64,000 nucleotides of DNA from assembly GCF_004765795.1 (NCBI RefSeq), contig NZ_SBIV01000008.1:124001-188000 (forward strand), given 5' to 3'. The stretch is from Halorussus marinus (lineage in GTDB: Archaea; Halobacteriota; Halobacteria; Halobacteriales; Haladaptataceae). Below, in pieces: positions 9,686 through 46,542 of the stretch. Each line of letters starts with the position of its first letter. The stretch's first letter is position 1. Below the pieces are notes generated by a model, which was not told the origin of the DNA, searched no databases, and saw only the letters and a program-made list of their open reading frames with translations. The translations under genes and the position numbers were made by a program.

Positions 9686-9875
9686 GCGCTGGAGATGGCA
9701 ACACCCCCACTTAGAGCTAGTGGTACGGAATCACCGTCGGCCTCGTCCGGATCGACCGACGTCCGCCGACCGGCGCTGACGAGCGGGACGCTGTCGAAAG
9801 ATAAGTGCCGAAGTTAGGTGGCTGGGGAGTTGCGGCCCCAGTTTCCGGACGGACAGTCCCCGCCCGGAAAGGAGG

Positions 9876-9949
9876 TGGGCCAACACGGATTTGAACCGCG
9901 AACCTCCCGGTTATCAGCCGAGCGCTCAACCTGATTGAGCTATTGGCCC
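9876..9949 (-). tRNA. tRNA-Ile (anticodon GAT)
   Basis: A 74-nt cloverleaf on the minus strand. The 7-bp acceptor stem pairs GGGCCAA with TTGGCCC, the discriminator base is A, the anticodon arm reads CTGATAA with GAT in the loop, and the T arm contains GGTTCAAATCC. The 3' CCA is not encoded (CCT follows the discriminator). No intron is present. A TATA-like box lies 33-41 nt upstream of the 5' end. Confidence 0.95.
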
Positions 9950-11374: not shown

Positions 11375-11549
11375 GGTGGGGACTCCGGTTCGGGTCGACG
11401 GAGTTCGAGGGCGAGGAGTAAGGGTCTTTCCGCCGGAGGTCGTAGGACCGACCGGCCGATGACGAGGCGATCGCTCCGAGCCGGTCTCGGCAGCCGGCGG
11501 TGACGAGCCCTATGAGTGCCGAGGCCGACGCCGTTCGAGCCGACGGGGC

Positions 11550-27767: not shown

Positions 27768-27851
27768 GGAACCGGTAGCCGACCCGCGGTAAAGAACTCG
27801 GTGGCCGGACCGACCGCCCCGAGAGCCGACCCGTCGGACGCTGGGTGGTCG

Positions 27852-27865
27852 TTCCTTCCAAGGAA
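27852..27865. promoter_or_regulatory. Inverted repeat upstream of the histidine kinase gene
   Basis: TTCCTT-CC-AAGGAA, a perfect 6-bp inverted repeat with a 2-bp spacer, 34-47 nt upstream of the ATG at 27899 and immediately before a TATA-like TGCTTTTGA. The position suits a regulator or BRE-proximal site. Confidence 0.35.
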
Positions 27866-27898
27866 ATGCTTTTGACGCTGACCGGCGGAGAGAGTCCA

Positions 27899-30007
27899 AT
27901 GACTCCCGGTCGAATCAGCCCCGAGGCGGTACTCGCCGCGAGCGAGCGCGCGGGAATCCGCGACGAGCCGGTGACCGCAAGCGAGGTCGCCGCGGAGGTG
28001 GGATGTACTCGCCGGACCGCGCTGAGCAAACTCGATACGCTGGCCGACCGGGGGACGATCCGAACCAAGAAGGTGGGCGCCCGGAGCCGCGTCTGGTGGC
28101 TCCCCGACGACGGCGACGCGCCGCCCGAGCCCGCGACGGCCGGCCTCGACGGCGTCCCGCCGGACGGCGGCGAGTCCGACCGCCTCGAGAGCGAGTTCCG
28201 CGAGATGTTCGAGCGAATCTCCGACGCGTTCTACGCGCTCGACGACGACTGGCAGTTCACGTACGTCAACGACCGCGCCGAGGAACTCATCGACTACCGC
28301 GACGCGGGTCTCGTCGGGCAGGACTTCTGGGAGGTGTTCGAGTGGGCGACCGACTCGACGCTCGGCGAGGAGTACCGGACCGCGATGGAGACCCAGGAGC
28401 CGACCGCCTTCGAGTTCTACTACCCGGAACCGCTCGAAGCGTGGTACGAGGTCTCGGCATACCCCTCCGAGACCGGGCTGTCGGTCTACTTTCGGGACAT
28501 CACCGACCGCAAGCGACGCGAGCGCGAGATCGAGGAGTACCGCTCGCAGTACGAGACGCTGGTCGAGAACTTCCCGAACGGCGCCGTCGCGCTGGTGGAC
28601 CCGGACCTCCGGTACGAGGTCTTTGGCGGTTCGCCCGAGAGCACCGAGGAGCTGACCCGGACGGACCTCGAAGGCAAAGGCGTCCGGGAATCACTGCCCG
28701 AAGAGCTCGCGGACGTCGTCGTCCCGGGCTACGAGGCGGCGCTCGACGGCGAGTCCTCGGAGTTCGAGGCCGCGGTCGGCGACCGATCCTACCGGTTTCA
28801 CTTCCTCCCGGTCCGGGACGACGCCGGCGACGTCTTCGCGGCACTGGGGATGTCGCAGGACGTAACCGAACGCAAGGAGCGCGAGCGGCGGCTCCAGCGG
28901 TATCAGGAGTACATCGACGCCGTCCTCGACGCGATCGACGACGTGTTCTACATCCTCGACGAGTCCGGACAGTTCCGACAGTGGAACGACAGCGTGCCCG
29001 CGGTGACGGGCTACCGCGACGAGGAGATCGCCTCGATGTCCCCGCTCGAGTTCTTCGACGAGTCGGATCGGGCGCGGGTCGCGGCGGCGATCCGGGAGGG
29101 GTTCGAGAACGGGAGCGTACAGATCGAGGCCGAGACCGTGACCAAGACCGGCGATCGAGTCCCCTTCGAGTTCGTCGCCTCGGCGCTCGACAGCCCGTCG
29201 GGCGACCGCGTTCTGGCGGGCGTCGGACGCGACATCACCGAGCAGGTCGAGCGCGAGCGAAAGCTTGAAGCGGCGGTCGACGAACTCGAAGCCTCGAACG
29301 AGCGCCTCGAGAGCTTCGCGAGCATGCTCGCACACGAGCTCCGCAACCCCGTCACGATCGGCCAGATCTACACCCGCCAGCTCCCCGACGAAACCGACTC
29401 GACGGCGGTCGAGTACGTCACCGAGGCGTTCGACCGTATCGAAGACATGATCGACGTGATGTTGGTGTTGACCCGCGGCACCGAAGCGGTCGGCGAGCGA
29501 GTGCCGGTCGATCTCGCGGCGGTCGCTCGTTCCGTGTGGGACGAGCTTTCGGTCCCGGACGCGACGCTCACAGTCGCGGTCGACCGCACGATTCGGGCGG
29601 ACGAGACGTACGTCCGCCACCTGTTCCGGAACCTCTTCGAGAACGCCGTCGAGCACGGCTCGACGAGCAATCGTCCGGAGGACGATGACGCCGTGGAACA
29701 CTGTTCGACGGGGGATCAGCCGTCTGCCGCCGAGCGCGACGGCCGCGGTGTGGCGGTGACGGTCGGCGACCTGCAGACCGGGTTCTACGTCGCCGACGAC
29801 GGCGCCGGGATTCCGCCCGACGAGCGCGACGCGGTGTTCGAGGCCGGCTACACGACCGCGGCCGACGGGGGCGGAACCGGCCTCGGGCTGGCGTTCGTTC
29901 AGGAGCTCGCCGACGTCTACGGCTGGGAGTGTACCGCGACCGAGAGCGACGCCGGCGGTGCGCGATTCGAGTTCCGAGACGTCGAGCGCGACCCGCCGTG
30001 TCTCTGA
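27899..30007 (+). CDS. Multi-PAS sensor histidine kinase with N-terminal winged helix
   Basis: A 702-residue soluble kinase without membrane segments. Order: winged helix-turn-helix (residues about 1-60, ASEVAAEVGCTRRTALSKL), three PAS domains (about 85-205, 212-325, 332-450), HisKA with the phospho-acceptor H479 in ASMLAHELRNPV, and HATPase with DDGAGIPPDERD and GGTGLGLAFVQELA. The PAS2 and PAS3 openings resemble each other. No receiver domain or cognate regulator is adjacent, so it is an orphan. A DNA-binding-like N-terminus on a kinase is a haloarchaeal habit. The frame opens earlier at 27845; the ATG at 27899 fits the promoter. The ATPase domain carries an internal repeat. Confidence 0.9.
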   Translation: MTPGRISPEAVLAASERAGIRDEPVTASEVAAEVGCTRRTALSKLDTLADRGTIRTKKVGARSRVWWLPDDGDAPPEPATAGLDGVPPDGGESDRLESEFREMFERISDAFYALDDDWQFTYVNDRAEELIDYRDAGLVGQDFWEVFEWATDSTLGEEYRTAMETQEPTAFEFYYPEPLEAWYEVSAYPSETGLSVYFRDITDRKRREREIEEYRSQYETLVENFPNGAVALVDPDLRYEVFGGSPESTEELTRTDLEGKGVRESLPEELADVVVPGYEAALDGESSEFEAAVGDRSYRFHFLPVRDDAGDVFAALGMSQDVTERKERERRLQRYQEYIDAVLDAIDDVFYILDESGQFRQWNDSVPAVTGYRDEEIASMSPLEFFDESDRARVAAAIREGFENGSVQIEAETVTKTGDRVPFEFVASALDSPSGDRVLAGVGRDITEQVERERKLEAAVDELEASNERLESFASMLAHELRNPVTIGQIYTRQLPDETDSTAVEYVTEAFDRIEDMIDVMLVLTRGTEAVGERVPVDLAAVARSVWDELSVPDATLTVAVDRTIRADETYVRHLFRNLFENAVEHGSTSNRPEDDDAVEHCSTGDQPSAAERDGRGVAVTVGDLQTGFYVADDGAGIPPDERDAVFEAGYTTAADGGGTGLGLAFVQELADVYGWECTATESDAGGARFEFRDVERDPPCL
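29642..29731 (+). repeat. Two-copy 45-bp repeat in the kinase ATPase domain
   Basis: Residues 582-596 (NAVEHGSTSNRPEDD) and 597-611 (DAVEHCSTGDQPSAA) are degenerate copies of the N-box region, encoded by adjacent 45-bp units. The repetition sits just after the catalytic asparagine. I recall similar expansions in other haloarchaeal kinases, unverified here. Confidence 0.6.
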
Positions 30008-30029: not shown

Positions 30030-30271
30030 CGCGACTTCCGGTCGCGCTCTCGCTTGCAAAACGTCGACGAAAAGCCCTCAGAGTCGCTTCGAAACGTACG
30101 GCCCGTCCTGATGGTACCCTAATTTCTCGCGATAGCACTCGACCTTTTCCGGCGCTCGATCGCGACTTCCGGTCGCGCTCTCGCTTGCAAAACGTCGACG
30201 AAAAGCCCTCAGAGTCGCTTCGAAACGTACGGCCCGTCCTGATGGTACCCTAATTTCTCGCGATAGTACTC
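30030..30271. repeat. Direct repeat of 111 bp (elp3 3' end and trailer)
   Basis: 30030-30140 and 30161-30271 are identical except for one base (C at 30136, T at 30267), with a period of 131 bp and a 20-bp spacer. The second copy contains the last 20 codons of elp3 plus 48 bp beyond its stop; the first is a detached duplicate. Each begins with a CGCGAC/GTCGCG hairpin (the first copy extends to a 7-bp stem at 30029-30047), which could act as a terminator between the convergent genes. Confidence 0.95.
30078..30140 (-). pseudogene. Duplicated C-terminal fragment of elp3
   Basis: Within the first repeat copy, the minus strand reads CYREKLGYHQDGPYVSKRL and a stop, the elp3 C-terminus with one substitution (Y to C). 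It has no start, promoter or upstream domain, so it is a remnant of partial tandem duplication, not a gene. Confidence 0.85.
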
Positions 30272-31864
30272 CCGGGCGCCGATCCCCGAGATGACGCTGA
30301 CCTTGTCGTAGCCCGCGTCGGCCGCGAGGCCCTCGGCCTTCCCGAGGAGCTTCCGTCCGTATCCCTTGTGCTGCCAGTCGTGGCTCTCGTCGCCGACTTC
30401 GACCATGGGGCCGTAGACGTGGAGCTCCCGGACGAGCGCGGCGTCGGTGAGCTCCCGACGGACGGGGTCGCCCGGGAACCGGAGCCGACAGAACCCGATC
30501 AGGAGGTCCTTGTCGGGATCCTCGTAGCTGATGAAGTGTTCGGTGCCGCCCGCGGCCTCGTAGGTCGTGACGTCGAGTTCGACGTTCTCGGGGTTCTCGT
30601 CGTTCATCCCGACCTCTCGACACCGGATACAGTCACAGCTCCAGCCGTGCTCGTCCATGCGCTTTCGGGCGAGCTGGCGGAGGTTCGACTTCCAGACGCC
30701 GGCGTCGATGAAGTCGGCGGGGATATCGCGCTGGACCCGCTGGAGCCGGGTGTACTTCGGGATCATCGACTTGATCTCGGCGACGAGCTCGGCGGCCTCC
30801 TCGTTGGTGAGCGGGTCGTACTCGTCGCGGTGCCACCAGTCGTAGGTCGCGGTCCCGCGGACCACCAGCGTGGGGTAGATCTTGAGGTAGTCCGGGCGCC
30901 ACTTCTCGTCCTCGAACAGCCGCCGGAAGTCCTCCAGACACATCTCCTGGGACATGCCGGGCTGGCCGGGCATCATGTGGAACCCGACCTTGAACGCGGC
31001 GTCCCGGAGCCGCCGGTTCGCGTCGATCGACGCCTGCACGCCGTGGCCCCGGTGCATCTCGCGGTTGATTCGCTCGTAGGTGGTCTGGACGCCCACCTCG
31101 ACCTTCGTCCCGCCCAGATCGAGCATCCGGTCGATCTGCTCGGGATCACACCAGTCGGGCTTGGTCTCGAAGGTAGTGCCGATGTTGCGGACGTCGTTGG
31201 TCTCGTTTTCGGCGATGACGTCTTCGAGGTACCGGAACTCGACCTCGTCGGGGTCCTCGGCGAAGCTCTCGCCCTCGGCGGGCGCGGGCTCGCCGTTCAC
31301 GTCGTAGTCGTTCATTGCCTCCAGCGCGCGCTTGACGAACCACTCCTGGTAGTCGTGGCTCCGGGCGGTCATCGTCCCGCCCATCAGGATGAGCTCGACC
31401 TTGTCGACGGGGTGGCCGATCTCCCGGAGCTGTTCGAGCCGCAAGGTGACCTGTCCGTACGGGTCGTAGTCGTTCTGGACCCCGCGGGCGGCCGCCGGCT
31501 CGTGGCCGGTGTAGCTCTGCGAGGAGGAGAACTCCGAACCGGGCCCGCCCGGACAGTAGAGACACTTGCCGTGGGGACACTGGTGCGGGCTGGTCATGAT
31601 TGCGACCGGCGAGACGCCCGACGCGGTGCGGACGGGCTTGTTCTGGAGGACCTCCTGGAGGTCCTCGCGTCGCTCGTCGGGCGCGTAGTCGAGCAGTTCG
31701 GAGTTCTTCGGCACCTTCGGCGAGGAGAACTCCGAGCAGACCTCGAGCTTCGCACTCTCTAGGTCGTCGCGCTCGATGTCGTCGGCGAGGATGCGCTCGA
31801 CCAGCTCCTCACAGACCCGCTCGAACGCCTCGGTCTCGGTGGCGTCCGGCGTCTCGGTACTCAT
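30209..31864 (-). CDS. elp3: Elp3: tRNA U34 carboxymethyl-type radical SAM/GNAT enzyme
   Basis: A 551-residue tRNA-modifying enzyme that adds a carboxymethyl-type group to wobble uridine-34. The radical SAM domain has a CX4CX2C cluster motif (C96, C101, C104 in CPHGKCLYC), followed by GGPGSEFSSSQSYTG. The C-terminal GNAT acetyltransferase domain begins near residue 400 and contains HKGYGRKLLGKAEGLA. In archaea Elp3 acts without the other Elongator subunits. The start MSTETPDATETEAF is supported by the length of the family. The 3' end and its trailer are duplicated immediately downstream. Confidence 0.95.
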   Translation of the reverse strand: MSTETPDATETEAFERVCEELVERILADDIERDDLESAKLEVCSEFSSPKVPKNSELLDYAPDERREDLQEVLQNKPVRTASGVSPVAIMTSPHQCPHGKCLYCPGGPGSEFSSSQSYTGHEPAAARGVQNDYDPYGQVTLRLEQLREIGHPVDKVELILMGGTMTARSHDYQEWFVKRALEAMNDYDVNGEPAPAEGESFAEDPDEVEFRYLEDVIAENETNDVRNIGTTFETKPDWCDPEQIDRMLDLGGTKVEVGVQTTYERINREMHRGHGVQASIDANRRLRDAAFKVGFHMMPGQPGMSQEMCLEDFRRLFEDEKWRPDYLKIYPTLVVRGTATYDWWHRDEYDPLTNEEAAELVAEIKSMIPKYTRLQRVQRDIPADFIDAGVWKSNLRQLARKRMDEHGWSCDCIRCREVGMNDENPENVELDVTTYEAAGGTEHFISYEDPDKDLLIGFCRLRFPGDPVRRELTDAALVRELHVYGPMVEVGDESHDWQHKGYGRKLLGKAEGLAADAGYDKVSVISGIGAREYYREKLGYHQDGPYVSKRL

Positions 31865-45822: not shown

Positions 45823-46542
45823 GTGACAGACGACATATCGCGTCGGCGAGTGCTCGAACTGGGGGGTGCGGTGCTCGGCGGTGGCTTCGCGACCGGGACG
45901 ACCGGAGCCGACCAAGCGCAGTTCGAGGCCGAGATACAGGGATGGGTGATACGCGGCGACCGGACCGAGATCACCGGGCGGGTGAGCGTCGTCGAGGCGT
46001 TTCAGCACCGGGGAATGAACCTGTGTAACGACGGGAAGGTCTATCGGTGTCGGACGTGCGAGAGAGTAGCGTTCTACCTCCTCGTGGCGAACGGCGCCTC
46101 GGAGCCGACGCCCGGCGACAGGTACCGCGTCGAGTCGACCGGAGAGGAGAGTAGGTGTGGCAACGTCCGCGTTCGCCTCCGCGCCGGCGCGGAATGTGGC
46201 GACAGCGGTGGCACGCCGGAGAACACGTCGACTCGATCCGACGGCGACGGTCCGGAATCGCAGTCAACCGAGGAACCGGAAACACGGTCAGCCGACGGTC
46301 GCACGACGACCGGCGATCCGGAACCGCCCTCGACTGACGATCCGGAAACGACAACGACTGACGATCCGGAACCGCCCTCGACCACCGTCGAAGCCGACTC
46401 CGAGACGGCCCCCGCCGGCGAGCAGGCGGACCCCGCGACGACCGACGCCGCCGCGAGGACGACACCCGAGCCAGCACCGGCGCCGACGAGCGAGGCGACG
46501 CGACTCCCGACGGACACCGAGACGACGACCGACGGGGACTGA
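45823..46542 (+). CDS. Tat-exported protein with Asp/Pro/Thr repeat tail
   Basis: A 239-residue secreted protein. The GTG start at 45823 gives [19 protein letters not shown], a twin-arginine signal peptide ([10 protein letters not shown]) with cleavage near TTGA, as is usual in haloarchaea. A GTG start is preferred over the ATG at 45772 because a TATA-like element lies at about 45764-45775. The mature part has a small domain with four to six cysteines ([12 protein letters not shown], then [16 protein letters not shown]), then a tail of Thr/Pro/Asp/Glu repeats, apparently a disordered or wall-spanning linker. Function unknown. Confidence 0.7.
46312..46383 (+). repeat. Three 24-bp repeats in the exported protein tail
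   Basis: Adjacent 24-bp units encode [16 protein letters not shown] and DDPEPPST; the first and third units share 21 identical bases. It lies in the disordered C-terminal tail and is likely prone to slippage. Confidence 0.8.

Follow-up and report, generated by a model that had tools for sequence, protein, structure and literature searches.

The window analysed here is a stretch of 64,000 nucleotides from the archaeon Halorussus marinus (contig NZ_SBIV01000008.1, positions 124,001 to 188,000). Near its middle lies elp3, the gene for a tRNA U34 radical SAM/GNAT enzyme, whose assignment follows from a TIGR01211 match of 799.7 bits against a cut-off of 350. The gene is on the minus strand, converges with a gene for a PAS histidine kinase on the plus strand, and has a doubled 3' end. 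The features, in window coordinates, are these:

27845-30007, plus strand: PAS histidine kinase gene, convergent with elp3
30030-30077, minus strand: shortened second E element, which repeats the elp3 trailer over its initial 48 nt and lacks the right arm of E (repeat search)
30078-30140, minus strand: copy of the elp3 tail, 63 nt with one mismatch, beginning at the right end of E; stop codon at 30078-30080
30140-30204, minus strand: E element, TTTT-N8-TTTTGC, hairpin, GGAAAAGGTCG; pattern match at contig positions 154140-154204 (window offset 124000); predicted fold of -24.5 kcal/mol
30161-30271, minus strand: main repeat copy (direct repeat D1; repeat search), spanning the final 20 codons of elp3, its stop and 48 nt of the trailer; stop codon at 30209-30211
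30209-31864, minus strand: elp3, open reading frame of 551 aa (TIGR01211), 3' end doubled

The repeat search returned two direct copies of 111 nt each (30030-30140 and 30161-30271), 99% identical and spaced by 131 bp, the repeated unit being the final 20 codons and stop of elp3 together with 48 nt of its trailer; the single mismatch sits near the junction. Tandem Repeats Finder reported the same region (30030-30271) with a period of 131 and a score of 477, the runner-up among 15 rows in the window scoring 110. An earlier note, made from the sequence alone, had described the 3' end of elp3 as tandemly repeated with just this length, period and single mismatch, and the extra copy as a pseudogene-like tail between convergent genes; both descriptions stand. 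Read along the minus strand, the order is elp3 and its stop codon, 4 nt, E, the tail copy and the 48-nt trailer repeat, beyond which the sequence toward the kinase gene is unrelated. The note had also taken the hairpin to be doubled, and this holds for a part of it, T-tracts included, the second E being without its right arm. Elsewhere in the genome the 321-base repeat region has one match, of 31 nt at 90% identity, to the trailer (expect value at most 0.001).

Some further features of the window may be recorded here. A minus-strand open reading frame at 30078-30623, in a frame other than that of elp3, reads through the end of elp3 and E into the tail copy and finishes on the same residues as Elp3; the period of 131 is not a multiple of three. 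The second-highest tandem array of the window, at 46307-46382, has a 24-bp unit in 3.2 copies. A tRNA-Ile (GAT) gene lies at 9874-9949 and an sR-tMet C/D box RNA at 11454-11526.

Tail copies recur behind elp3 in other haloarchaea. An Elp3 protein search across 99 relatives gave second, partial C-terminal matches directly behind the gene in H. marinus and in genomes G015, G033 and G091. An elp3 match was present in 97 genomes, and the downstream survey covered the end of the gene and about 19 kb beyond it in 80 of them: a strong tail copy lies within 300 nt of the gene in seven of the 80, H. marinus included, and weaker copies of 17-19 nt are present in three more (G002, G050 and G081), that of G050 standing directly behind the stop codon without E. 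In a set of 80 named loci, tail copies occur at six, those of Halorussus ruber, Haladaptatus sp. DYF46, Halococcus thailandensis, Halorientalis salina, Halalkalicoccus paucihalophilus and Haloferax sulfurifontis. Across 392 genomes of the order a degenerate tail pattern, which overlooks shorter or degraded copies (for example in G024, G085, G195 and G310), had at least two matches in 24, and in 19 of these, from seven families, the matches lie within 300 bp. The other five were not counted, their second match lying on another contig: in G046, G112 and G345, and presumably in G273, it looks like another gene, and G106 has it in a second elp3-like gene. The two elp3-like genes of G106, on contigs C20 and C40, may represent a second gene or a mixed assembly.

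The spacers of the elp3 pairs measure about 68-228 bp. Most end in a hairpin of the form TTTT-N8-TTTT(T), stem-loop, AAAA(A)GGT(C/G)G, with the tail copy starting at most about 15 nt from its right end. A loose form of E is present in the spacer of 14 of the 19 genomes with a near tail copy; the exceptions (G081, G139, G252, G276 and G323) have, by eye, variant or interrupted spacers. Four genomes (G085, G279, G313 and G393) carry tandem units of tail plus E. Two genomes of different families, G104 and G124, have a common 13-nt junction, AAAAGGTCGTCGT, followed by the same position of elp3, and each tail nonetheless matches its own gene. Other local direct repeats were seen in relatives at L094:7491-7709 and L034:18037-18266, with periods of 123 and 119.

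That the repeat is an assembly artefact is exceedingly improbable: the H. marinus genome is in 37 contigs and the repeat is known here from the assembly rather than from reads, but the same arrangement is found in other assemblies, with different junctions and spacers. The earlier note favored a local event, and a one-off tandem duplication by replication slippage or microhomology repair, with the hairpin as its trigger, is consistent with one mismatch in 111 nt; moreover, both the tandem units of the four genomes above and the shortened second E of H. marinus look like duplications of tail plus E. Such an event does not account for recurrence of the arrangement behind elp3 in seven families, for a spacer that belongs to a dispersed element, or for the several filled sites (described below) at which native DNA, and not a second E, follows the copy. 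We regard it as an unlikely explanation of the arrangement as a whole. It may fit the latest step in H. marinus: given the shortened second E beyond the copy, a tail-plus-E unit may have slipped or been exchanged unequally there. The doubling of the elp3 end is, however, probably not a lone copying slip, and the phenomenon is not an isolated accident. The earlier note had allowed, as the alternative to its account, for an independently conserved element in relatives, and this is largely what was found, in the form of a dispersed hairpin family and of tail copies in seven families and at other genes.

The consensus of E comprises two T-tracts, a stem-loop and an A-tract ending in AAAAGGTSG. The search pattern, TTTTSRYSVASVTTTTN{16,46}AAAAGGTSG, is present in 294 of the 392 haloarchaeal genomes, at up to 43 copies per genome, 13 of them in H. 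marinus (G000); among the matches listed for these 392 genomes there was none to the reversed pattern. In a survey of 246 genomes of the phylum the pattern occurs in 26, all within the 43 haloarchaea, and in none of the other 203; the reversed pattern matches one genome. E is thus haloarchaeal in distribution. A shorter query, AAAAGGTCG, with 15 matches in 1.56 Mb, nine of them behind elp3 and followed by the tail, had suggested a feature of elp3 only; this reading was rejected because the fuller pattern matched so many genomes. One pair of facing positions covaries, with C/G in 58 and G/C in 43 of 101 E copies and no exception, the pattern having permitted other combinations, and the fold energy is clearly lower than that of base shuffles, with a mean z of -4.0. 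As its T-tracts are readable in both directions, E is predicted to act, probably, as a transcription terminator. Rfam gave no family match for five E loci up to an expect value of 1, and none at E within the window at gathering scores.

Several observations concern variation and carriage. Most of the 43 E copies of G098 (L265-L294) have a common arm, GATCCACA, pointing to genome-specific subfamilies. Genus g7 of family f5 is nearly without E though other genera there are rich in it, a natural contrast for tracing a helper gene. A number of Haloferax E copies (in G139, G277, G310 and G313; L124, L356, L330 and L123) are interrupted between GGTCCA and GATTTTTGC by a similar nested insert that is itself rich in hairpins; this is seen both at elp3 and at a further gene. 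Viral carriage was considered and rejected: the four matches of the pattern among viral contigs lie where G+C is 32-58% and E-like sequence is absent, and we judged them to be chance. Plasmids gave no match to one 101-nt query from a single E locus, so that no carrier was found among viral contigs searched by pattern or plasmids searched by that query. The open-licence literature searched, chiefly titles and the starts of abstracts with some passages, yielded no description of E or of E-plus-tail cassettes.

Gene-end copies accompany E at genes other than elp3 as well. We examined 101 E copies, a non-random set made up of one locus from each of 30 genomes, all loci of H. marinus, 30 loci of G098 and loci of four genomes selected for carrying the elp3 cassette. 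At 22 of the 101, E is flanked by a copy of sequence from its opposite side, mostly the 3' end of the neighboring gene and in two cases part of a tRNA gene; the 22 include tandem neighbors (L303 and L312) and doubtful gene tails (L293 and L319). Leaving out the four elp3 sites, 18 of 97 copies have a gene-end copy, and in the sample of one E per genome the figure is 8 of 31. Applied to controls, the same test was positive at 13 of 1500 positions chosen at random and, in a set of 1500 gene ends that includes elp3 sites, at 22. In H. marinus a tail copy accompanies one of the 13 E copies, that at elp3, and in G098 two of 30 loci passed. The flanking repeats vary in length from 15 to 78 nt, and similarity between gene tail and copy usually stops at the stop codon; in G276 and at L312 the common segment extends 13-15 nt past the stop, up to the T-tract. 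At L249 and L285 the neighbor of E is a tRNA gene, and 15-17 nt of tRNA sequence are repeated across the element.

The remaining 79 of the 101 E copies have no detectable gene-end copy, and in 37 of these the right end of E lies at most 6 nt from an opposing stop codon, an arrangement that the cassette interpretation developed below does not explain. A distance of only 0-3 nt is frequent (L239, L253, L255, L257 and L260-L263).

A restored gene 3' end with the displaced end further downstream is the classic outcome of integration by an element that uses the gene end as its attachment site, and the elp3 repeat could be the scar of such an integrase-type element. In the downstream survey (80 genomes, about 19 kb beyond elp3) no second tail at a distance was convincing, and the same arrangement is found at many unrelated genes, which makes this origin very improbable. 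A large integrated element still in place was likewise rejected, the matches listed (up to four per genome) being scattered and 13-24 nt long.

Filled and empty sites can be compared in Haloferax (genus g51). At elp3, G238 is empty, the gene being joined straight to the downstream DNA, and G310 is filled, E and a 21-nt tail copy standing between elp3 and the downstream DNA that it has in common with G238. At a second gene, compared in 12 species, the site is empty in G283, G238, G310 and G313, filled once in G378, G139, G277 and G392, and filled by two tandem units in G393; G348 has a remnant of E without a tail, and G195 and G381 show neither. Here too the copy is followed by native downstream DNA. 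The filled state is uncoupled between the loci: three genomes, G283, G310 and G313, combine a filled elp3 site with an empty second gene. The empty state may be either ancestral or the product of a clean loss through the two tails.

The second gene also bears on which of the two ends is native. In four of the five filled species the main stop and the sequence after it are the same (TAACCTAAG) and differ from the native form. In G393 the downstream DNA is closest to that of G313 and G277, and the last copy has the arginine codon of these two genomes; in the main tail and first copy the arginine codon is the other clade's, and the E that goes with them matches that of G378 and G139 exactly. This is a hint, carried by one codon plus the post-stop sequence, that in G393 the main end arrived with E and the last copy is the native one.

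In 21 distinct elp3 pairs, 22 of the codon changes between main tail and copy are synonymous and 7 are not, against an expected synonymous share of 27% (p about 7e-8, counting changes in related species as independent and taking the best-matching copy of each array), and third codon positions carry 21 of 33 changes. Candidates scoring below 13, including the shorter or degraded copies of G081, G088, G095, G208 and G323, were left out, and L204 and L221, which repeat G252 and G277, were removed from the 22:7 count; further array copies in G279 and G313 carry non-synonymous changes. Fourteen pairs at other genes gave 9:9, with no synonymous excess, some of the frames being doubtful (L247 and L295); this set excludes eight rows, namely the four elp3 sites, the two tRNA sites, L293 and L319. 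In Haloferax the elp3 copies differ from their own gene by 1.3 mismatches of 24 and from the genes of other species by 2.1, a modest gap. Because the differences at elp3 are mostly synonymous, and so bear the mark of coding constraint, the copies there appear, judged from sequence, to have been exchanged with the gene or to have been its functional end until recently; they are not simply decaying. For the same reason near-identity need not mean recency, and the recent origin that the earlier note read from it is not required. More generally, near-identical short duplications next to genes need not be recent accidents.

These data can be set against the possibility that E is a transposable element and that the gene-end copy is a long target-site duplication, variable from insertion to insertion, with later changes reflecting decay. 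At two loci the filled site equals the empty site plus E plus a second copy of the target segment, copies are found at many different genes and at tRNAs, E forms genome-specific subfamilies, and in G276 and at L312 the common segment continues past the stop codon to the T-tract. Decay sits poorly with the synonymous excess between elp3 tail and copy; target-site duplication, for its part, would not predict that similarity usually stops at the stop codon, nor the common, non-native post-stop sequence seen at the second Haloferax gene in four of the five species that are filled there, and a repeat of 15-78 nt is unusually variable. As a full account we consider transposition possible, if doubtful; transposition with target-site duplication may nevertheless have been the founding step.

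With a confidence somewhat above even, we favor the view that E and the copied gene end together form a cassette which is gained, homogenized and lost by recombination through the duplicated end. The 131-bp period of H. marinus would correspond to one unit, in which the 3' end of a gene is followed by the E hairpin and then by a copy of that 3' end. The copied end would serve as a portable right-hand homology arm, and because it supplies homology on the right side, the cassette could be placed, multiplied and cleanly lost by recombination: homologous recombination with a donor allele would insert E behind the gene, whatever DNA lies downstream, chromosome copies would multiply or homogenize units by unequal exchange, and recombination between both tails would remove the cassette cleanly. 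Homologous recombination is the mode of exchange that we infer. Exchange of this kind is plausible in that Haloferax volcanii is reported to be polyploid and to carry out very efficient unselected gene conversion, even between genes of very different species (PMC8223754). For the first arrival of E at a gene, together with a copy of 15-80 nt of the gene's end, candidate routes include a long target-site duplication, template switching at the hairpin, an RNA- or recombinase-mediated step, and some other enzyme.

A bolder proposal, which we offer only tentatively, is that E is an active haloarchaeal mobile element without a protein gene, which rewrites gene 3' ends and is placed at new genes by a helper. 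Each arrival of E would bring a new tail, stop codon, untranslated region and terminator, and the old end would stay behind as a scar that becomes the portable homology arm of the element; the helper might be a recombinase, an HUH enzyme or an RNA-templated step.

Should the cassette interpretation hold, tiny cassettes with no protein of their own would be swapping the gene ends of haloarchaea, organisms known for polyploidy and efficient gene conversion. Scattered duplicated gene tails would then be explained, and the evolution of terminators would be tied to recombination between species. Filled and empty sites within one tractable genus would, in addition, provide a countable natural assay for the gain and loss of a non-coding element.

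Among known systems, casposons and proviruses insert at the 3' ends of tRNA or protein genes and leave a duplicated end; their length runs to kilobases, and they have an integrase gene and a preferred target. E, in contrast, is short and uses many genes, and no convincing tail that would mark the far end of a kilobase element lies within about 19 kb downstream of elp3 in the 80 genomes surveyed. Closer in size are miniature inverted-repeat transposable elements (MITEs), which, like E, are small, non-coding, dispersed and flanked by direct repeats. Their target-site duplication is short and of roughly fixed length, whereas the repeat flanking E, at 15-78 nt, is the gene's own end, and the arms of E are imperfectly complementary.

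E has one hallmark of REP-type sequences in being a multi-copy dispersed hairpin, as its copy number (up to 43 per genome), stem covariation and fold energy indicate. As REP- and REPIN-type palindromes are described (PMC1525189, PMC3116915, PMC12306157), the likeness extends to short, dispersed, extragenic hairpins with genome-specific subfamilies; the sequence of E differs, and gene-end copies flank it. The main text of one of these papers (PMC12306157) contains no occurrence of haloarchaea, Haloferax or Halobacteri. The T-tracts of E, close behind the stop codon, also recall haloarchaeal T-stretch terminators: the paper that maps 3' ends in Haloferax volcanii gives a termination of 95% at a T stretch and of 59% at a hairpin that it tested (PMC7237163). 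Such terminators need be neither conserved dispersed elements nor trailed by a copy of the gene end.

The closest parallel in outcome comes from fungal mitochondria, in which mobile-ORF elements are reported to replace the C-terminal ends of genes (atp6 in Allomyces; atp6, atp9, cox2 and nad3 in Glomus; PMC3630166). The order described for these elements, of gene, new 3' end, insert and native 3' end left behind, is like that of E, and gene, new end, insert and old end joined to native downstream DNA is the order found at elp3 and at the second Haloferax gene. In the same account the native ends differ from those of relatives mostly at synonymous sites and the elements spread between species, two further points in which the cassette reading of E would resemble them; the fungal inserts, though, encode a homing endonuclease, and with an identity of about 64-81% the end that they bring is plainly foreign (PMC3630166). 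By comparison with that description, the spacer of E is a short non-coding hairpin, too short behind elp3, at about 68-228 bp, for a homing endonuclease gene; identity between the two gene ends is mostly 90-100%, and tandem multiplication of units occurs. E is not a member of this class and resembles these C-terminal-replacing elements, by analogy, at most in outcome.
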